Assembly: GCF_000250735.1 (NCBI RefSeq)
Contig: NZ_AHZV01000182.1
Coordinates: 1-64,000 of the forward strand
Direction: 5' to 3'
DNA from: Anaerophaga thermohalophila str. Valhall
Lineage (GTDB): Bacteria > Bacteroidota > Bacteroidia > Bacteroidales > Marinilabiliaceae
DNA length: 64,000 nucleotides
This document shows, in pieces, positions 4,935 to 49,786 of this stretch (position 1 is its first letter; each line of letters begins with the position of its first letter). Both the position numbers and the translations under genes were made by a program. The notes under the pieces were generated by a model. The model made no database searches. It worked only from the letters and a program-made list of their open reading frames with translations, and was not told where the DNA came from.

Positions 4935-5354
4935 AAAATGGCATGATGCAATAGATTGTTAGATTTTTAGATAATAGTAACCGACAGGCAGAAGTTCAAC
5001 AGGCAGAAGGCAGAAGTAATAAATTTTGTAGAAAAGAATTTTTCAGTTTATTCCGAAAATTTGCCAGATAAGCAAACATTAAACTTAATATGGTAAATTA
5101 TTGATTTAAAGCTGTTTAATGCCTTGAGTGAGATAAAAGTAATTTATTCGTTAGTTAGTCAGTAGTTGAAATTTCAAATAACGACATCTTCATAAATTCA
5201 ATAGATCGTTAGATTTTTAGAAATAAGATGTAAGATGGTTTTTACAACCTTGATATATTGCATTTTAACAAACAAACCTCTCTGTATGCAAACAGTTGGT
5301 TTACAGCGTATTGCATCTAAAAATCTAACGATCTGTTGACTTTATAGACACGCA
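4935..5354. other. 420-bp intergenic region with a complete family C repeat
   Basis: The region holds a short gacaggcagaag-type repeat, a left-end fragment of family C near 4950 and a full family C element at 5199-5338. In that element both ends carry the same 19-base sequence in opposite orientation (agatcgttag...). No gene, promoter or terminator was recognised. Confidence 0.5.
5199..5338 (+). repeat. Family C repeat with long terminal inverted repeats
   Basis: The left arm agatcgttagatttttaga at about 5203-5221 is exactly inverted at the right end near 5316-5334, and the outer tips are CAAT and GTTG. The internal segment includes gcaaacagttggtttacagcgtattgca, also seen in other family C copies. 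It can fold into a large hairpin and has no open reading frame. Confidence 0.65.
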
Positions 5355-8082: not shown

Positions 8083-8422
8083 GTTATAAATATATTAGTA
8101 TTAATGAATCTAAATGCTGACACAATAACGCAAAGATTTATTACGGAAAAATTGTAATTCATCAGGCATATTTCATGCAAAAGATTGTTAGATTTTTAGA
8201 TAGTAGATGTAAGATGACTAATATAATGTTGAAAATTAGATTTTTAGTACAAACATTCATTTAATTATAAACAGCCAACTTCAAACAGTTTAAAATCAAT
8301 TAATTACATCAAGCAGGCATGTTTTAATAAATGAAAATATTCAACTAATTACAAATCATCTCATATCTTACCTGCCGGCAGGCCGGCATCTATGAATCTA
8401 ACAATCTATCAATTTAGGCATA
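8083..8422. other. 340-bp spacer between FluC and DUF190 genes
   Basis: It contains a family C left-end fragment near 8178-8215 and a short cctgccggcaggccggcatc palindromic repeat near 8370. Both are widespread intergenic repeats in this window. Otherwise it is AT-rich with no gene or riboswitch recognised. The insertion of repeats may have separated a formerly tight crcB-DUF190 pair. Confidence 0.5.
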
Positions 8423-17512: not shown

Positions 17513-18403
17513 ATGCTAAATAAAACCATACGTTCAAGAATAACCGACAGCTGGATGTTGACTGCTCTTGTTATCATACTCTTTCTTCCATTAATTATAG
17601 GGCTGGCTCTCTTTCTAAAATCTATCCCCCTGTTTCATATCAGTTCTCTGCCATGCCTTTTATTTTCGGAAGACTGGGCGCCTAATGCCGGAGAATTTGG
17701 TTTTTGGCCGTTTATTTACAGTTCATTGTATGTCACTGCACTTTCTTTTGTTTTCTCGGCCCCGTTGTGTTTACTGGCAGCCATATACCTCACCGAATTT
17801 GCATCCAAAAGACTGATACAGATTATGCATCCCGTGATTGACATTTTGGCTGGTATTCCATCGGTTATTTACGGAATGTGGGGTATCTTGGTCATTGTTC
17901 CCCTAGCCGGGGAAATACTGGCTCCCTTTTTCAATATAAAATCGTCGGGTTACTCGGTTTTAGCCGGGGGAATTGTTCTGGCTGTCATGTGCATTCCCTA
18001 TATGCTGAATATGCTAATTGAATCATTTAAGACAGTCCCTTACGGATTAAAAGAAGCTGCTTTTTCTTTGGGCGCTACGCATTGGGAAACCATAAAACAT
18101 GTATTGTTACGAAAAAGCAGGCCGGGTATCCTATCGGCATTTGGATTAGGGCTGGCCAAAGCTTTTGGTGAAACACTGGCTGTAATGATGGTCGTGGGAA
18201 ATGTTATTCAAATCACCGGCAACCCTTTTAAAGCAGCATACCCTCTGCCTGCCCTGATTGCCAACAATTACGGAGAGATGCTCTCCATCCCTTTGTACGA
18301 TTCGGCTCTAATGTTTGCAGCACTAATACTTCTGATTGTTGTTTTATTGATCAATCTTATTTTCAGATATTTCATTGTCTCAAGTCATGCAGTTAAAATA
18401 TAA
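17513..18403 (+). CDS. pstC: Pst-type ABC importer permease PstC
   Basis: This 296-residue inner-membrane permease has about six helices and a binding-protein-dependent transport signature (EAAFSLGATHWETIKHVLLRK, residues about 181-201) that docks on the ATPase. The IPSVIYGMWG helix and FGLGLAKAFGETLAV segment are typical of PstC. It lies 38 bp after the binding-protein gene. Partner permease PstA follows after a repeated leader sequence. Confidence 0.9.
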   Translation: MLNKTIRSRITDSWMLTALVIILFLPLIIGLALFLKSIPLFHISSLPCLLFSEDWAPNAGEFGFWPFIYSSLYVTALSFVFSAPLCLLAAIYLTEFASKRLIQIMHPVIDILAGIPSVIYGMWGILVIVPLAGEILAPFFNIKSSGYSVLAGGIVLAVMCIPYMLNMLIESFKTVPYGLKEAAFSLGATHWETIKHVLLRKSRPGILSAFGLGLAKAFGETLAVMMVVGNVIQITGNPFKAAYPLPALIANNYGEMLSIPLYDSALMFAALILLIVVLLINLIFRYFIVSSHAVKI

Positions 18404-18482
18404 TACATAAGTTTCTGCATGCAAATTCCCTGTCTGCCGACAGGCAGGCATTCGACCATAATAAATAAATTTTATACAAATG
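18404..18482 (+). repeat. Repeated 5' leader element (family E) upstream of pstA
   Basis: The stretch tacataagtttctgcatgcaaattcc ... attcgaccataataaataaattttatacaaatg resembles the segments just upstream of arsM (22369-22440, minus), yitT (33030-33137) and lptE (49424-49530, minus). Here a tgtctgccgacaggcaggca palindrome is inserted, and the element's ATG (18480) opens only a three-codon frame, 40 bp before the real pstA start. Confidence 0.6.
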
Positions 18483-18519
18483 AAAGCATAACGAACGGCC
18501 AATCAGAAAAAATCACGCG

Positions 18520-21247: not shown

Positions 21248-21465
21248 AAAATGAATGTTTAAACGCAAAGACGCTAAGGCGCAGAGTTTATTTTAGACTT
21301 ATTTATGTTATAGATCGTTAGATTTTTAGATTTAAGATATAAGATGATTCGTATTTGATTGAAAATATGCATTTTACCAGAACAACTCATGCGATACAAC
21401 CAGTTGATTTTAAAGTATTTAAAAGAGTTTTGCAAACTATTGGTAACATTAAAAAGGAAATGGCT

Positions 21466-21570: not shown

Positions 21571-22368
21571 CTATCCCATCTTCACAGCAAATAACGTAAT
21601 ACTGAAAATTCCGCCTCCTGATTGCTTAAATTCTTCCAGTTCATCAGGTGTAACATGATTCAGAAGTGTTTCATCCGACAAGACGATTTCCTTTTCCGTC
21701 TGAACTGTAATGCCGGAAAATCCCTGTCTTTTGACAATGGAGATGTATTCATCTTTGTCAATGGCACCGGAAACACAACCGGCATACATCTCGGCATCTT
21801 TTTTCAGGCCTTCAGGAAAATTTCCAACAATCACCACATCAGAAATAGAAAAGTGTCCTCCGGGTTTCAGCACTCTGAAAATTTCTGAAAAAGCTTTTTG
21901 TTTATCAGGTACCAGATTCAACACACAGTTGCTGATTACCACATCGAATGATGCATCGGGAAGTGGCATCTCTTCAATATCGCCCTGAACAAATTCTATA
22001 TTTTTAAATCCTGTCTTCTCCAGATTTTCGTTGGCCTTTTTGATCATCGCTTTAGTAAAGTCGAGGCCTGTCACCTTTCCTGAATCACCGGTTTGGGTTC
22101 TGGCTACAAAGCAGTCATTGCCCGCACCACTTCCCAGATCCAATACATGATGGCCTTCTTTAATTTGAGCAAACTCTGTAGGCAATCCGCACCCCAAGCC
22201 AAGGTCAGCGTCTTTGTTGTAACCTAGCTGCCCGGTGTAATCATCGTTAAACACTGAGTAGTCAACTTCCCCGTCGCAGCATCCTGTATCACCGCAGCAG
22301 GAGGTGTTGTTTTCGGCTATTTGCCCGTATTTGTTCTGAACAATTAGTTTTAAATCTTGTGGGTTCAT
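21571..22368 (-). CDS. arsM: Arsenite S-adenosylmethionine methyltransferase ArsM
   Basis: This 265-residue enzyme methylates As(III). It has an N-terminal CCGDTGCC cysteine cluster at about residues 24-31, the GLGCGLP motif containing a substrate-binding Cys, SAM motif I VLDLGSGAGND, and motifs FVQGDIEEMPLPD and SNCVLNLVPDK. The latter holds the second conserved Cys, and MYAGCVSGAI the third. All three cysteines expected for As(III) binding appear present. It lies downstream of arsC in the minus-strand ars set, with a family E leader repeat directly upstream of its ATG. Confidence 0.93.
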   Translation of the reverse strand: MNPQDLKLIVQNKYGQIAENNTSCCGDTGCCDGEVDYSVFNDDYTGQLGYNKDADLGLGCGLPTEFAQIKEGHHVLDLGSGAGNDCFVARTQTGDSGKVTGLDFTKAMIKKANENLEKTGFKNIEFVQGDIEEMPLPDASFDVVISNCVLNLVPDKQKAFSEIFRVLKPGGHFSISDVVIVGNFPEGLKKDAEMYAGCVSGAIDKDEYISIVKRQGFSGITVQTEKEIVLSDETLLNHVTPDELEEFKQSGGGIFSITLFAVKMG

Positions 22369-22440
22369 CCGTATAAAATTTATTTATTAAGGTCGGATGG
22401 AACTCGCGATTTCTTTATACATACCCTTTTGTGGCAGTTT
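22369..22440 (-). repeat. Repeated 5' leader element (family E) upstream of arsM
   Basis: Read on the minus strand, tatgtataaagaaatcgcgagttccatccgacc ... aaataaattttatacggatgaac matches the leaders of yitT and lptE closely and that of pstA partly. It abuts the arsM start codon, so it supplies that gene's 5' untranslated region. Confidence 0.65.
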
Positions 22441-22514
22441 TGAGAAATCAAAGCTCCATGCTCGTTTCATAAAATTAATTTGAAAATAATTCGATTTGAA
22501 AATTTGAAAATGCC

Positions 22515-29805: not shown

Positions 29806-30138
29806 TCAACTGATCACTTAGCCTGCTTTTGAATTTGGAGGCTATTGCCAGGATGTCTCAAAGTTTTTGTATTTTCGCAGCTTTAACAATAGCATAATAA
29901 GATAATTGAGTCTGTTCCTTAAAAAGCTATTTTTCACAAGATCGAGACAAAGTGATTTTTTGAAATGGCGCTTTATGCAATAGATCGTCAGATTTTTAGA
30001 TTTAAGATACAAGATGAACATTAAGGCACTGATAATTTGTATTTTAAATACAAACAATTGTCTTAAAATCGTTGGTAAAAGTTTAACGGACTATTGTTTA
30101 TGGACAGACACTAAAAATTAAATACTATAGAAGACACC
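29806..30138. other. 333-bp intergenic region before leuS with a family C repeat
   Basis: After about 170 bp of featureless AT-rich sequence lies a family C element at 29978-30096. It is bounded by CAATAG and CTATTG, 43 bp upstream of the leuS ATG. No promoter is recognised. A minus-strand 71-codon frame here is derived from the repeat. Confidence 0.5.
29978..30096 (+). repeat. Family C repeat bounded by CAATAG/CTATTG
   Basis: This copy shows the element's inverted termini most clearly: caatagatcgtcagatttttag at the left and aaaagtttaacggactattg at the right. Its internal sequence differs from the other copies, but the ends are conserved. Confidence 0.65.
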
Positions 30139-32927
30139 ATGGAGTACAATTTCAAAGAGATCGAAAAGAAGTGGCAAAAACACTGGAAAGACCAGAAAAC
30201 CTACAAGGTTGATATTGACAAAAACCGTCCCAAATACTATGTTCTTGACATGTTTCCCTACCCTTCCGGAGCAGGGTTGCACGTGGGACATCCGCTGGGA
30301 TATATAGCATCCGATATTTTCAGCCGGTACAAAAGATCTTCCGGATTTAATGTGCTTCATCCCATGGGATACGATGCCTACGGCCTTCCAGCCGAGCAGT
30401 ATGCCATTCAAACCGGACAACATCCGGCCATAACCACCGAAAACAATATAAAAAGATATCGCGAACAGCTCGACAAAATTGGTTTCTCTTATGATTGGGA
30501 CAGAGAAGTAAAAACCTGCGATCCCAAATACTATCACTGGACCCAGTGGGCTTTTATTAAAATGTTCCATCACTATTACGACAATAAAGCCGATAAAGCA
30601 CTACCAATTGAAGAACTGATTAAAAAATTTAATGCTTCGGGCACAAAGGATGTAGATGCTGCATCTTCGCAAAAACTCAATTTTTCTGCCGAAGAGTGGA
30701 AAAAATGAGCGAAAAAGAACAACAGGAAGTGCTTCTAAATTACCGTATTGCTTATCTGGCCGACACAATGGTAAACTGGTGCCCGGCACTTGGAACTGTA
30801 TTGGCCAACGATGAAGTAAAGGATGGGGTGTCACTTCGGGGAGGGCACCCGGTCGAACAAAAAGTGATGCGCCAATGGTCACTCAGAGTTTCTGCTTATG
30901 CAGAACGTCTGCTCAAAGGACTGGACAATATTGACTGGACAGAATCGCTCAAGGAAATCCAGAAGAACTGGATAGGCCGCTCCGAAGGTGCTGAAATGGT
31001 TTTCCCCGTAAAAGATTCGGATGTGGAGATGAAAATTTTCACCACCCGGGCCGACACAGTATTCGGGGTTACTTTTATGGTACTGGCCCCTGAAAGCGAA
31101 TTGGTTGATAAAATAGTTAAGCCCGACAAAAAAGCCGAAGTCGACCAATATATAAAGGATGCCAGGAAACGCACCGAAAGGGAGAGAATGTCGGAAGTCA
31201 AAAAAATGACCGGCGTTTTTACAGGAGCTTATGCCATCAATCCCCTGAACAATGAAGAAGTTCCTGTATGGGTAAGTGACTATGTTCTGGCCGGTTACGG
31301 AACAGGAGCCATTATGGCGGTACCGGCTCACGACAGTCGCGATTTTGCTTTTGCCCGTACTTTTGATCTGCCCATTGTTCAGGTTGTCGTTCCCCGGGGA
31401 GAAGAACCCGGCGATATAGACAAATGGGACGATGCAAGAGATTCCAAAGAAGGCTACATGATCAATTCCGGGTTTCTGAATGGTCTGAATGTTCCTGAAG
31501 CCATAGAAAAGACCAACGAGTACATCCGCGAAAAAGGCCTTGGTGAAGTGAAAGTAAATTACCGACTCCGCGATGCTATTTTCAGCCGTCAACGTTATTG
31601 GGGCGAACCATTCCCCGTTTATTACAAGGACGGAATGCCCTACACACTTGATGAGTCGGAACTTCCCCTGGAACTTCCCGAAGTCGACAAATATCTGCCC
31701 ACCGACAAAGGAGAACCGCCGTTGGGACGCGCCAAAAACTGGAAAACCAAAGAAGGATATCCCCTTGAATTAAATACTATGCCCGGGTTTGCCGGATCAT
31801 CAGCCTATTACCTGCGCTATATGGACCCCCATAATGATCAGATGCTGGTCAGTCCCGAAGCCAACCGGTACTGGCAGGATGTTGATCTTTATATTGGCGG
31901 TACCGAACATGCAACAGGACATCTTATCTATTCCCGTTTCTGGAACAAGTTTCTTTACGACCTTGGAGTAGTTTGCAAACCGGAGCCTTTCCGGAAGCTC
32001 GTCAACCAGGGAATGATACAGGGACGCTCCAATTTTGTTTACAGAATCAAAGGTACCAACACCTTTGTATCTTACAATCTTAAGAATGATTATGACGTCA
32101 CCCCCCTTCACGTTGATGTGAATATCGTAAACAACGATATCCTCGACATCGATGCCTTCAAAAAATGGAATCCCGAGTACAAAGATGCCGAATTCATCCT
32201 CGAGGAGGGCGATAAATATGTATGCGGATGGGCTGTGGAAAAAATGTCGAAATCAATGTTCAACGTGGTTAATCCCGACGACATCATTGAGCAATACGGT
32301 GCCGACACCCTTCGCCTTTATGAAATGTTCCTTGGCCCTCTGGAGCAATCCAAGCCCTGGGATACCAACGGCATTGACGGTGTACATAAATTCCTTCGCA
32401 AAACCTGGAGACTATTTTCCGATCGTGATGATAACATACTTGTAACCGATGAGGAACCTTCAAAGGCAGAGCTTAAAGTATTGCACCGAACTATTTCAAA
32501 AGTCACTGACGATATAGAGCGCTTTTCCTTCAACACCTGTGTCAGTGCTTTCATGATATGTGTTAACGAACTCAGCGACCTGAAATGCCATAAGCGGGCC
32601 ATTCTGGAGCCGTTGCTGGTACTTCTGTCACCATTTGCACCGCACATGACGGAAGAACTCTGGCACTTATCCGGACACAATGATTCAATTGTTGATGCCA
32701 CCTGGCCCCTGGCAGAAGAAAAATATCTGAAAGATGACACCGTGATCTACCCTGTTTCTTTCAATGGAAAAATGCGATTTAAACTGGAAATGCCTGCCCA
32801 AGCAGACAACGCTGAGATAGAAAAAGCCGCCCTGGAACATGAAGGAGCCGCCAAATGGATAGAAGGAAAAACCATCCGAAAAGTGATTATTGTTCCAGGC
32901 AAGATCATAAACATTGTTGTGTCGTAA
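30139..32927 (+). CDS. leuS: Leucyl-tRNA synthetase, frameshifted at an A-run
   Basis: This class I aminoacyl-tRNA synthetase charges tRNA-Leu. The first frame (to 30708) carries the HIGH motif as LHVGHPLGY near residue 52. The second carries the CP1 editing domain ([18 protein letters not shown]), a second catalytic segment with [10 protein letters not shown], the KMSKS loop as [15 protein letters not shown], and the anticodon-binding domain. Adding one A to the A6 run at 30700-30705 gives [12 protein letters not shown] and a continuous protein of about 930 residues. The gene is essential, so the gap is almost certainly a sequencing or assembly error. Confidence 0.93.
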
Positions 32928-33029
32928 AAATCAATCATGCAAGCTGCATCATACCAACAACTTAGACTAATTTTATACTGATGAAACGAGCATGGCAAGG
33001 ATTGCCATAATAGATCATTAGATTTTTAG

Positions 33030-33137
33030 ATATAAGATGTAAGATGAAATGAGCATAGAAAGGTAAACCACAATAAGAATATGTATAAGTTCTTGCATGC
33101 GAGTTCCATTAGGCCTTAACAAATAATTTTTATACGA
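33030..33137 (+). repeat. Repeated 5' leader element (family E) upstream of yitT
   Basis: The stretch taagatgtaagatgaaatgagcatag ... atgtataagttcttgcatgcgagttccatt ... aataatttttatacg is nearly the same as the reverse complement of 49424-49530 before lptE. Both end exactly at the start codon of the downstream gene. A family C left end lies immediately upstream at 33008-33030. Confidence 0.7.
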
Positions 33138-34058
33138 ATGAACAGAGAATACCTCTGGAGAGAGATTCGATCTTATATAATCATCACTGCCGGTTTGGCA
33201 ATGGGTTCCATTGGCTGGACCGGGTTCATTATTCCCAGTGAGATTGTAGGTGGCGGTCTCACCGGTATTTCCAGCATTCTCTTTTTCCTTTTCGACATAG
33301 ATGTGGGTTTAAGCAGTCTGTTAATCAATGCTGCCCTTATTCTTATTGCTATCAAATCCATTGGGGCCTCGTTTGGAATAAAAACCATTTATAGTGTTGT
33401 AGTATTTTCAGGTTTTCTCTCTTTCTTCAGCAATATATTCACCAGCGAACCCCTGGTAGGCGAAAAGATGATGGCAGCCGTAACCGGCGGCATTTTAAGT
33501 GGAATTGGCGGTGGACTTGTCTTTTCGTACGGTGGAAGTGCCGGCGGTACCGATATTATTGCCCGTATCATCAATAAGTATTACAACATCAGCATGGGCA
33601 GACTTCTGCTGGCGATGGATGCCATCATAATAGTGTCGGCCTATCCTATTTTCTGCTCAATAGAAACCATGGTTTATGGTTTTATGACCATGGCTGTTAT
33701 TGCTTATGCAATCGACCTGGTAATTTCGGGTAACAAACAAACCGTACAGTTTTTCATTTTTTCCCGCAAACATAAAGAGCTTGCCGAACAAATTGTTTAT
33801 ACCGGGAAAAAAGGACTGACTATTATTCCGGCTATTGGAGGCTATACGGGAGAAGAAATTAAAGTACTCATGGTTTATGCACGAAAAAAAGAATCATCCA
33901 TTATATTCAGAATCATAAAAAGTGTCGATCCTGAAGCATTCATTACTATGGGTAATGTAATGGGTATTTTCGGAGAAGGATACGACCGTTTAAAAATACG
34001 TGAAAAGAAACGTAAGCCTCTGACCGAAATTGAAGCAGAATTAACCGACCGAAATTAA
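33138..34058 (+). CDS. YitT-family membrane protein (DUF161/DUF2179)
   Basis: This 306-residue inner-membrane protein has about five to six helices in the YitT_membrane domain (GSIGWTGFIIPSEIVGGGLTGIS near residues 21-43, and GGSAGGTDIIARIINKYY near 130-147). A soluble C-terminal DUF2179 domain of about 85 residues follows. Family function is unknown. It starts at the ATG at 33138 immediately after a repeated leader element, and an M23 peptidase gene follows 27 bp after its stop. Confidence 0.88.
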   Translation: MNREYLWREIRSYIIITAGLAMGSIGWTGFIIPSEIVGGGLTGISSILFFLFDIDVGLSSLLINAALILIAIKSIGASFGIKTIYSVVVFSGFLSFFSNIFTSEPLVGEKMMAAVTGGILSGIGGGLVFSYGGSAGGTDIIARIINKYYNISMGRLLLAMDAIIIVSAYPIFCSIETMVYGFMTMAVIAYAIDLVISGNKQTVQFFIFSRKHKELAEQIVYTGKKGLTIIPAIGGYTGEEIKVLMVYARKKESSIIFRIIKSVDPEAFITMGNVMGIFGEGYDRLKIREKKRKPLTEIEAELTDRN

Positions 34059-41473: not shown

Positions 41474-41934
41474 AGAGAGATTGTTAGATTGTTAGATTGT
41501 TAGATTATTAGATTATTAGATTATTAGGTTGTTAGGTTGTTAGTGTCTTACCCCTGATATTCGTGTTTTTTTTGGCAAAATTAATGCTCTGTCACCGCTC
41601 CGCGGTTAATTGTTACGGACTTTATTGGTAACGTTACCGCTCTGTCACCGCTCCGCGGTTTTAGTATTTTTAACCCTATATCAGCAGTTAATAGCCGCGG
41701 AGCGGCGACAGAACGGTAGAATTATGTAAAGAAAAACAAAAAGCTGCGGAGCAGTGACAGATAATGTATAAATTTGTTTGGTTCTGGCTTGTCCAGGTTA
41801 GGTTGTTAGGTTGTTAGGTTGTTAGGTTGTTAAGATTGTTGGTTGTTGGTAGCTCAACCTTAACCTCAACCTCAACCTTAACCTCAACCTTAACCTCAAC
41901 CTCAACCTTAGCAGGTTTCGGGTTGCTGGTTTTA
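41474..41934. repeat. Repeat-dense region: TTAGATTG tracts, CTGTCACCGC repeats, AACCTT tracts
   Basis: Three different repeats fill these 460 bp. At 41474-41545, tandem ttagattgttag/ttaggttgttag units occur, with more near 41800-41835. At 41587-41761 there are four copies of a ctgtcaccgctccgcggtt unit, two direct and two inverted. At 41854-41910 there are AACCTT/AACCTC hexamers in a telomere-like array. No coding sequence is supported. It lies downstream of both convergent-minus genes around it. Confidence 0.75.
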
Positions 41935-44210: not shown

Positions 44211-45179
44211 ATGTATAAAATAATTGTAACCGGCTGTGCCGGATTTATCGGTTCCCATTTATCCGAAACATTACTAAAAGAAGGACATAAGGTTGTTGGT
44301 ATTGATAACTTCGACCCCTATTACAGTCCTGCCATAAAAAGAGACAACCTGAAGAATTGTTTTACTGACAAAAATTTTCTGTTTTTTGAGAAGGATTTAA
44401 GAGATGAAGCTTCTGTCCATAAAATCTTCTCCAAAGGAGCGGATATAATAGTTCATCTTGCAGGGAAAGCCGGTGTGCGTCCCAGTATTGAAGCCCCGCA
44501 AAGTTATATCGATCATAATATAACATCGACTAGAGTTGTGCTCGACGCTATGAAGAAAAGTAACATCACGAAACTGGCTTTTGCAAGCTCTTCGTCGGTA
44601 TATGGTAACAATCCGCAAACCCCGTGGCACGAAGACATAAATGTTGACAACCCCATTTCGCCTTACGCGTTTTCAAAAAAATCGTGCGAACTCTTAAATC
44701 ACACCTGGCATCATTTATACAGATTCGACATCATTAATATGCGATTTTTTACAGTATACGGGCCTCGTCAGCGTCCCGACCTGGCCATTCATAAATTCAC
44801 ACGCATGATGTTCGAAAATCTCCCGCTTACATTGTTTGGTGATGGCAGTACAGCCAGAGATTACACCTATATTTCGGATACAGTGAGCGGAATACGCGGG
44901 GTTATCAGCTACCTGATGTCGCACAATTCTGTGTTCGAGGTAGTAAATCTTGGCAACAATCATCCGGTGGCCTTAAAAGAGCTCGTTCAAAAAATAAGCC
45001 TGGCAACGGGCATAGACCCCCGAATTGAAAGATTACCTGTACAGCCGGGTGACGTCGATATCACTTATGCCGATATCGGGAAAGCCAAACGGATGATCGG
45101 TTATCAGCCACAGGTAAATCTTGAAAACGGCCTGAAATATTTCGTGGAATGGTTCAAAAAGAAAAAGGCCGCCTTTTAA
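44211..45179 (+). CDS. NAD-dependent sugar epimerase (UDP-glucuronate 4-epimerase-like)
   Basis: This 322-residue extended short-chain dehydrogenase has the Rossmann motif TGCAGFIGSHL (residues about 7-17) and the IDNFDPYYSPAIKRDNL segment typical of UDP-glucuronate epimerases. SSSSVYG and the catalytic YAFSK complete the SDR site. It probably interconverts nucleotide-sugar epimers for surface glycans. No other glycan genes are adjacent, so the exact sugar is uncertain. A short aaaaggc-gccttt dyad spans its stop codon. Confidence 0.85.
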   Translation: MYKIIVTGCAGFIGSHLSETLLKEGHKVVGIDNFDPYYSPAIKRDNLKNCFTDKNFLFFEKDLRDEASVHKIFSKGADIIVHLAGKAGVRPSIEAPQSYIDHNITSTRVVLDAMKKSNITKLAFASSSSVYGNNPQTPWHEDINVDNPISPYAFSKKSCELLNHTWHHLYRFDIINMRFFTVYGPRQRPDLAIHKFTRMMFENLPLTLFGDGSTARDYTYISDTVSGIRGVISYLMSHNSVFEVVNLGNNHPVALKELVQKISLATGIDPRIERLPVQPGDVDITYADIGKAKRMIGYQPQVNLENGLKYFVEWFKKKKAAF

Positions 45180-48895: not shown

Positions 48896-49423
48896 TTACC
48901 AGTCAGCAAATGCTTTATTAAAAATATTATCCGTAAGTTCTTCCACAATCTCACTAACCAACTCACCCTCAATGGCTGTAATGTTCTGTTCACTCGGGAA
49001 ATCGCGATATGCCGAAAAAGAAGACTCCCAACTTTTTTCGGGGTCTTTAAAGTTTTCGTATCGAACATTAATCCTAACAGTCAAACGGGTTTCAGCCGAA
49101 ACAGCGTCTGCCTGAATAGCAAGTGGTTCTGTTTCGTAACCGGTTATTTCTCCTGAAAAGTCCACATCTCCGGTTTCTTCAGCAAGTGTAAGTCTCGAAC
49201 CGTTAATAACCCGGTCTTTCAGGGCTTCGGTAAGGGTCTGGCTTAAAACGGGGTTTATATATGCAGCTCTGTTATCGAACGTCTGAACAGAGGCAGTATG
49301 CACGTTTTCTGGAATGGATGCCCCGTCGAATGTCATCTGAATGGCACATCCATGCATCAGAAAGGACACTACTAAAACCCACATACTTTTTGTTATGACA
49401 CTCTTAATCTGATGTTTATTCAT
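48896..49423 (-). CDS. lptE: LPS-assembly lipoprotein LptE
   Basis: This 175-residue lipoprotein has a signal with lipobox MHGC at about residues 23-26 and the LptE-like pattern: VQTFDNRAAYINPVLSQTLTEALKDRV, VDFSGEITGYE, and SEIVEELTDNIFNKAF. LptE plugs LptD during LPS insertion in the outer membrane. The ATG at 49423 directly follows a family E leader repeat. The sigma-54 activator gene lies upstream on the same strand. Confidence 0.85.
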   Translation of the reverse strand: MNKHQIKSVITKSMWVLVVSFLMHGCAIQMTFDGASIPENVHTASVQTFDNRAAYINPVLSQTLTEALKDRVINGSRLTLAEETGDVDFSGEITGYETEPLAIQADAVSAETRLTVRINVRYENFKDPEKSWESSFSAYRDFPSEQNITAIEGELVSEIVEELTDNIFNKAFADW

Positions 49424-49530
49424 TCGTATAAAATTTATTTAACTAATTGGCCGAATGGAACTCGCATGCAAGAACTTATACATGTTCTTATTATGGTAAA
49501 ACTATCTATGTTCATTTCATCTTACATCTT
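49424..49530 (-). repeat. Repeated 5' leader element (family E) upstream of lptE
   Basis: On the minus strand taagatgtaagatgaaatgaacatag ... atgtataagttcttgcatgcgagttccatt ... ataaattttatacgaatg corresponds almost base for base to 33030-33137 before yitT, ending at the lptE start codon. The region also carries ttacatcttacatcttaca units of family C. Confidence 0.7.
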
Positions 49531-49646: not shown

Positions 49647-49786
49647 TTAACCTTAACCTTAACCTCAGTCTCAACCTCAATTAATAATTGGTAACTGGTA
49701 ATTGATAATTAATCTGTGGTGAATCCTCAACCTTAACCTCAACCTTAACCTCAACCTCAACCTCAACCTTAACCTTAACCTCAACC
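49647..49786. repeat. Telomere-like AACCTT/AACCTC tracts
   Basis: Runs of AACCTT and AACCTC hexamers occupy 49647-49680 and 49726-49786, separated by ggtaactggtaattgataatt units. A similar array lies at 41854-41910. Both arrays are just downstream of minus-strand genes. They are low-complexity tandem repeats with no coding role seen. With 49424-49646 they fill the 400-bp gap before the sigma-54 activator. Confidence 0.75.

Follow-up and report, generated by a model that had tools for sequence, protein, structure and literature searches.

A probable non-autonomous mobile DNA element of about 97 bp that inserts after ATGAA and can rebuild start codons in Anaerophaga

Introduction

The right end of some IS200/IS605 members resembles the target, and IS200/IS605 elements have an insertion bias towards the lagging strand. 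According to PMC7290912, the family is characterized by the absence of terminal inverted repeats and of target duplication, by insertion 3' of a short string and by structured ends. REP/BIME repeats associated with RAYT constitute a second described system; according to PMC3733652, GTAG repeats often supply the TAG stop codon to neighbouring ORFs. A third one is BrickBuilt of Porphyromonas gingivalis; PMC4596501 describes it as a MITE with inverted repeats that includes a minisatellite and lies at a distance of 49-591 nt from the closest coding sequences.

The present work concerns a repeated segment found in a stretch of 64,000 nt of Anaerophaga thermohalophila str. Valhall (hereafter the window), the genus being placed by NCBI in the Marinilabiliaceae (Bacteroidia, Bacteroidota). 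Like non-autonomous IS200/IS605 elements, it has neither inverted repeats nor duplication, it inserts 3' of a specific pentamer and its right end is target-like; hairpins are found near both ends (the stems P1 and P2, which covary), although in P1 the left end is paired with the centre. It differs from them in that its target, ATGAA, is used at start codons and rebuilt, and in that the two stems share a central CAT. With REP/BIME it has in common many intergenic structured copies per genome. Unlike REP/BIME, its ends are devoid of the GTAG/CGTC tag, it is not a simple 20-40 bp palindrome, it is not found beside the RAYT-like gene examined and it is oriented towards the gene at start codons. 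The stop supply by GTAG repeats is the mirror image of the start supply by the element and is the nearest published statement found. Like BrickBuilt, it is a repeated mobile element of the class Bacteroidia, whereas inverted repeats, a minisatellite and a distance from coding sequences are features of BrickBuilt. It also differs from DDE-type MITEs, being without terminal inverted repeats or target duplication. No description of such an element was found in searches of open-licence PMC papers.

The reading that we consider probable is that the repeated segment is mobile DNA: a non-autonomous element, about 97 bp long, which lacks terminal inverted repeats and whose insertion rebuilds the start codon.

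Results and Discussion

Copies of the element in the window

Five copies are present within the window, all of them hits of the covariance model, and the unit length is 99-107 bp in the four other than the older copy before yitT. The copy at the yitT start (33044-33142, + strand; nhmmer and covariance-model hits) is an insertion absent from the ortholog in G001, a second Anaerophaga genome. Its last five bases, ATGAA (33138-33142, +, same hits), contain the start codon. The 5' arm of P1 lies approximately at 33048-33058 (+, mapped by eye) and its partner, the 3' arm CATGCGAGTT, approximately at 33096-33105 (+), with the covariation of P1 in the diverse set as evidence. The 5' arm of P2, CATTAG (33107-33112, +), pairs with the start-codon segment with one A-G mismatch; the 3' arm, CGAATG (33135-33140, +), includes the yitT start codon. 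Upstream, 32981-33043 (+) is made of a left-end fragment of a further unit (32981-33017) and a linker from another AT-rich repeat. An older diverged copy (32878-32985, +, covariance model) is the first of the tandem pair before yitT, and its ortholog is the sole element copy at yitT in G001.

Two further copies are on the minus strand. One (49419-49520; nhmmer and covariance model) has its right end at the lptE start (49423), a site that is filled in G001 too. The other (22364-22470; covariance model) has its right end at the start (22368) of a methyltransferase gene («arsM») and contains ~12 extra nt within its left part. A degenerate copy (18382-18484, +; nhmmer E 9.5e-6; covariance model R1 E 0.012) is localized 35 bp before a pstA-like permease ORF (18520). 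The window also holds an empty site at the start (ATGTA, 44211-44215, +) of an epimerase-like gene, the G001 ortholog of which has an element ending in ATGAA.

A preliminary description of this DNA had reported a common leader before three unrelated genes and a degenerate one before pstA. The former is recovered here as element right ends at the start codons 33138 (+), 49423 (-) and 22368 (-), the latter as the copy ending at 18484. The limits that it gave at yitT must be shortened, since the element covers 33044-33142 and 33030-33043 is the other repeat, linking the two yitT copies. Pfam assigns YitT (PF02588) and LptE (PF04390) to the genes behind the copies at 33138 and 49423, BPD_transp_1 permease at the «pstA» place, and a predicted class-I methyltransferase, without implying arsenite specificity, at the «arsM» place. 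With up to 3 mismatches, there are 4 occurrences of ATAAATTTTATACGAATG in the window where 0.19 are expected, a number attained in none of 100 shuffles. Two occurrences of GCATGCGAGTTCCATT, both of them exact, compare with 0.56 expected when 3 mismatches are allowed.

Other repeats are present in the window. The second AT-rich repeat, AGATCATTAGATTTTTAGATATAAGATGTAAGATG, is found at 371-407, 5200-5237, 8179-8217, 21310-21347 and 29979-30018, and links double element copies. Short tandem repeats with units of 6-8 bp (AGATTGTT, GTTAGGTT, CTCAAC, CCTCAA) occupy 41478-41543, 41797-41908 and 49725-49786.

The genome of the strain comprises 4.54 Mb in 371 contigs. When up to 3 mismatches are allowed, the string of the right end gives 78 forward and 123 reverse matches in all of it, the reversed control giving 0 and 2. 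The consensus extends from ATGAAACGAGCATG to TTTTATACNNATGAA, i.e., ~97-102 bp, and adjoining tandem copies have a single ATGAA in common. Between the two inner arms, ATGTATAA (e.g., window 33080-33088) is nearly invariant among Anaerophaga copies. A variant of ~220 bp (C277:18871-19093 and about 10 G001 loci) has its middle replaced by a stretch in which TGTCATTCTGAGCGGAGCGAAGAATCT is accompanied by a partial inverse of itself; this stretch resembles a REP pair that has been inserted.

Target and empty sites

At 129 non-tandem left ends, the pentamer preceding ACGAG is ATGAA (81), ACGAA (14), TTGAA (13), GTGAA (6), ATAAA (5), AAGAA (3) or one of 7 singletons. The right pentamer is nearly fixed, i.e., ATGAA in 134 of 157 cases. 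Candidate empty sites, the flanks being joined by script, were obtained for 18 of the 111 copies used as queries. At these sites the pentamer is identical to the left one in 14/18 and to the right one in 8/18; the better fit is with the left in 8, with the right in 2 and tied in 8, several of these ties looking like matches to the copy's own right end. The clear cases with differing ends read ACGAA on the left, ATGAA on the right and ACGAA when empty; they lie within a repeat with ~100 empty database hits each, a figure that gives no copy number since the database includes overlapping loci. Another case is C296:41617, with the empty site TAGAA vs. the right end ATGAA. Since most empty sites match the left pentamer and the right one is nearly always ATGAA, the right ATGAA is carried by the element and there is no duplication. 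Sequence comparison thus establishes that insertion takes place immediately 3' of NNGAA, in most cases ATGAA, that the target is not duplicated and that ATGAA forms the last five bases of the element.

Among the queries from G000, the strain's own genome, 21 of 97 had an orthologous 3' flank, and among those from G001 36 of 161; of these, 10 and 11, respectively, were flagged as filled in both species. These filled or empty flags are automatic, and «empty» partners with a remnant or another copy were excluded from the count. Eight ortholog pairs have a start filled in one species and empty in the other. Five are alignable on both flanks (C38:10790, B175:100359, B175:36133 with its empty partner at window 44211, B175-41004 and L289-1854); the others are B175-51624, B192-49221 and B201:6246 (a 72-codon ORF). 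The empty starts read ATGAA in four pairs and ATGGA, ATGTA, ATGAG and GTGAA in one each, while the filled starts are always ATGAA. In the three cases of ATGTA, ATGGA and ATGAG the filled site reads ATGAA at both ends, so that either a substitution in the empty lineage or an alteration of the target is needed. At B175-41004 the TGA of the upstream gene overlaps the downstream ATG; after insertion the stop stays on the left and the start is rebuilt on the right (frame read by eye). For yitT, the start ATGAA is found at the same residue, with no element found, in four genomes of the genus g5 (probably Marinilabilia). In G001 the gene is preceded by a single old partial copy, which G000 shares in addition to a further insertion.

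The mechanism that we propose is as follows. Insertion at a start codon ATGAA leaves the old ATGAA to the left of the element and a new in-frame ATGAA on its right. As insertion is 3' of ATGAA and the element itself ends with ATGAA, a gene hit at its start codon regains one, and the orientation towards the gene is automatic. Insertion into the ATGAA of an older copy leads to tandem arrays. The native start would then open a short upstream ORF (predicted as ATG AAA CGA GCA TGR). A conserved leader peptide is rejected: in many copies codon 5 is TGA (GCATGA), and yet the stem is preserved.

Placement relative to genes

Placement was analyzed in 1.08 Mb of G000 and 0.736 Mb of G001, with 1,365 genes called by a simple coding-score script, a caller that may favour the in-frame ATG brought by the element. 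The non-tandem right ends number 161: 57 form the start of a called gene, 76 precede a co-oriented gene, 27 precede an opposed one and 1 is at an edge; none (0/161) is wholly inside a called gene. One copy (L004), read by eye, is in the last codons of a gene. The 89 right ends of G000 comprise 31 at gene starts, 35 upstream of co-oriented and 8 upstream of opposed genes, and 15 within tandem arrays; the corresponding values for the 102 right ends of G001 are 26, 41, 19 and 15, with 1 at a contig edge. Of those at gene starts, 50/57 are exactly at the called start and the other 7 are in frame with it.

Free ATGAA, i.e., outside the copies, are distributed as 6122 in genes, 254 at starts and 942 intergenic (38 at edges were unused). 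When starts are compared with intergenic free ATGAA, all 57 cases give an odds ratio (OR) of 2.05 (p 1.2e-4), i.e., starts are used about twice as often; the OR is 2.67 for G000 (p 1.4e-4) and 1.61 for G001 (p 0.058, not significant). For the 50 exact starts only, the values are 1.80 (p 0.002) overall, 2.16 (p 0.004) for G000 and 1.55 (p 0.10) for G001. The preliminary description had left it to a genome-wide survey whether copies lie at random relative to genes; in these 1.08 and 0.736 Mb they do not, with no right end wholly in a gene, 57 at gene starts and the excess at exact starts given above. Its suggestion of a mobile element that targets start codons holds as far as mobility and the over-use of start codons are concerned, but the recognised string is NNGAA/ATGAA and not the start codon itself. 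In the proposed mechanism, in-gene insertions would be removed by selection, and those at start codons would be retained, the gene still having a start.

Identical copies in one genome

In genome G476, seven identical 99-bp copies are inserted at different sites, which leads to the conclusion that the element was active recently. Five of the seven open ORFs of 353-521 aa (two of which run off the locus) and the other two open 6 and 30 codons. When all 14 copies of this genome are read, 9 open ORFs of at least 281 aa. In the same loci the free ATGAA are 8 at starts and 40 intergenic, i.e., 9:5 for the element vs. 8:40 (OR 9, p 0.001). The nine called starts sit upstream, inside the element (3 nt before the right ATG in two, 21 nt in seven), and the start excess vanishes with exact or one-codon matches only (2:5, p 0.60). 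In a test independent of the gene caller, the criterion was an ORF of 100 codons or more preceded by at most 30 open codons; 9/14 element ends open such an ORF, vs. 11/219 free ATGAA, among which those within genes are also counted. The counts for G491, from which one right end that the caller placed within a gene is left out, are 6:8 vs. 6:38 (p 0.052). Young copies are thus often at gene starts, either through the choice of the enzyme or through selection.

The flanks of the identical copies differ in the 8 bases on each side, except for a common T before and a common A after. More generally in G476 (L489-L500, L431-L433), T precedes the left ATGAA in 13/14 and A follows the right ATGAA in 14/14, start or not. 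The target preference may be longer than ATGAA, or specific to a subfamily.

These flanks also bear on the alternative that the copies were propagated without transposition, leaders recombining with one another by gene conversion or homologous recombination. Such a spread would suit the many copies in repeat-rich intergenic DNA and the tandem arrays. It is nevertheless very improbable, given that the change from the element to unrelated flanking DNA is abrupt and occurs at two constant points, that clean empty sites exist and that the flanks of the seven identical G476 copies are different.

Occurrence across the order

Covariance model R1, the calibration of which is rough, has matches at E <= 0.001 in 52 of 198 genomes of the GTDB order (own genome included), and six genomes have at least 20 scored matches. 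By DNA similarity, the element is found in 11 of 61 relatives (own genome included), all within the family, and in none of 394 other genomes of the phylum; the wide range is thus visible by the covariance model alone. Among the strict-pattern matches listed, those named are from Anaerophaga, Marinilabilia and Thermophagus. No match was found in plasmids, phages or IMG/VR.

Outside the genus, 55 hits from 22 genomes were checked. In 36 of them an ORF of 104 aa or more, which in some cases runs off the locus, begins at the ATGAA of the right end; 3 are tandem-internal and 16 are other cases. The hits checked are those with the highest scores in each genome, a selection that may favour well-preserved copies at start codons. 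In the nearer genera, the fraction of non-tandem right ends at which an ORF of 60 aa or more begins is 5/16 in Marinilabilia, 4/7 in Thermophagus, 1/3 in G018, 2/5 in G023/G032 and 7/11 in G005, G008, G009, G015, G025 and G031, where the genes differ from one another.

Base-paired stems

P1 is formed by the left end (GAAAC..GCATG) and the centre (CATGC..GTT), P2 by the central CATNNG and the right-end CNNATG; both share one central CAT. The stems were proposed by eye, then tested against shuffles and slid versions. RNAalifold gave no consensus structure on the A1 alignment. With 60 Anaerophaga copies, P2 has 44 both-side-changed cells, a value reached by 0 of 500 shuffles (slid versions, 1-6), while P1 covariation is absent from this Anaerophaga-only set (no both-side-changed cells). 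With 40 diverse copies, both-side-changed cells are 14 for P1 and 31 for P2 (0/500 shuffles for both). The re-search of 51 model-selected loci gave 57 hits spanning the whole model; over these order-wide hits, 16 pairs have 116 both-side-changed cells (0/500 shuffles; slid versions, 9-31) in an alignment that was fitted to the covariance model and hence leans towards it. The P1 arms are AACCCACATGTT/AACATGTGGGTT in G476 and AAGTTTCATGAG/CTCATGAAACTT in G007, i.e., fully complementary despite their different sequence.

Such stems could also belong to a functional RNA leader, a translation switch in which the central CAT would pair with the left or the right ATG, spread and kept for gene control. 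This explanation accounts for the burial of the start codon by P2, for the covariation of both stems, for the long ORFs opened by 5/7 identical G476 copies and for the copies that precede different genes in other genera. A maintained RNA helix should favour wobble pairs. The cells with G-U plus U-G vs. A-C plus C-A in P2 are 17:13, 7:4 and 2:2 in A1, A2 and A3, i.e., 26:19 when summed over these partly overlapping sets (p 0.37), which is no clear excess. The absence of a preference for G-U over A-C in the terminal stem thus gives no support to a maintained RNA leader, and the pattern of P2 cells fits better with a DNA-level constraint, or with decay after insertion, than with a kept RNA helix. 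Moreover, the genes behind the copies are different and 104/161 Anaerophaga right ends are not at called starts. At gathering score, neither the window nor any of 20 loci has an Rfam match, and a known riboswitch or sRNA is rejected on this ground. Altogether, the RNA leader appears improbable. For the mobile element that we favour, movement would take place via a single-stranded DNA intermediate folded into P1 and P2, possibly cut by an enzyme in trans as in the «peel-and-paste» transposition of IS200/IS605.

Search for the mobilising enzyme

The element could be a MITE mobilised in trans by a Y1 transposase (IS200/IS605 or RAYT), an ordinary member of its kind; the lack of terminal inverted repeats and of target duplication, the insertion 3' of a short fixed string and the structured ends are all in keeping with this. 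The Y1 (PF01797) genes of G000 and G001 differ, G018 has a RAYT-like gene only, and their palindromes are unlike the element. In G476, the genome with seven identical copies, no stand-alone Y1 was found, this genome being 95% complete so that one could be missed; its only Y1-like stretch is part of a 1270-aa ORF in which an Eco57I methylase domain is also found. Replication-strand bias is absent (60 leading : 54 lagging, non-start clusters). For 67 copies, no pairing association was found between the target flank (-1 to -3) and the copy's own centre (p 0.65-0.86), the pentamer itself varying too little. A Y1 MITE is therefore a possible but rather unlikely explanation. As no Y1 gene with the element's ends, no strand bias and no guide-target match at -1 to -3 were found here, the element is not filed in IS200/IS605, though it is similar in working.

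Other candidates were considered. Thirty further Y1 loci were inspected; none is enclosed by element ends, and three weak element hits are nearby. The other Y1 loci scanned are not enclosed either, and over the whole set a few have a copy close by. An IS200-like TnpA as the source is rejected, its loci having different flanks. Two element copies lie ~0.4 kb from the TnpA at G001:C198, which is unsurprising with one element hit per 6 kb. A RAYT repeat is also rejected, since the palindromes on either side of the RAYT-like gene at G000:C357 (L154 1100-2000) are its own and bear no relation to the element. The IS91 Y2 transposase (PF04986) is present in three g5 genomes and absent from the element-bearing G000, G001 and G018, by which the element differs from IS91-type systems. 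An autonomous copy was looked for among the left-only and right-only copies; the fetched stretches, which are part of each genome, contain no transposase-sized insert between matching ends.

Y1_Tnp-scoring stretches are also seen in large Eco57I-type methylase ORFs, at 994-1071 in L510:3-3812 (-) and at 638-730 in L509:2600-6796 (+), and Y1 hits occur within other very long frames in several more genomes. The seven identical copies in one genome make the mobilising enzyme directly searchable.

Conclusion

A broader proposal is made tentatively, and is less likely than the mobile element itself: a new class of mobile DNA across this Bacteroidota order, which would prefer and rebuild translation starts, be moved by an enzyme that is neither Y1 nor IS91, and be a source of starts for several percent of Anaerophaga genes. 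In the sample analyzed, ~4% of called genes (57/1,365) begin at or by a start codon carried by the element, so that gene starts, 5' leaders and upstream ORFs are in part written by mobile DNA. Rebuilding the start would be a simple route for a selfish element to occupy a gene at its most sensitive position and yet leave it intact.
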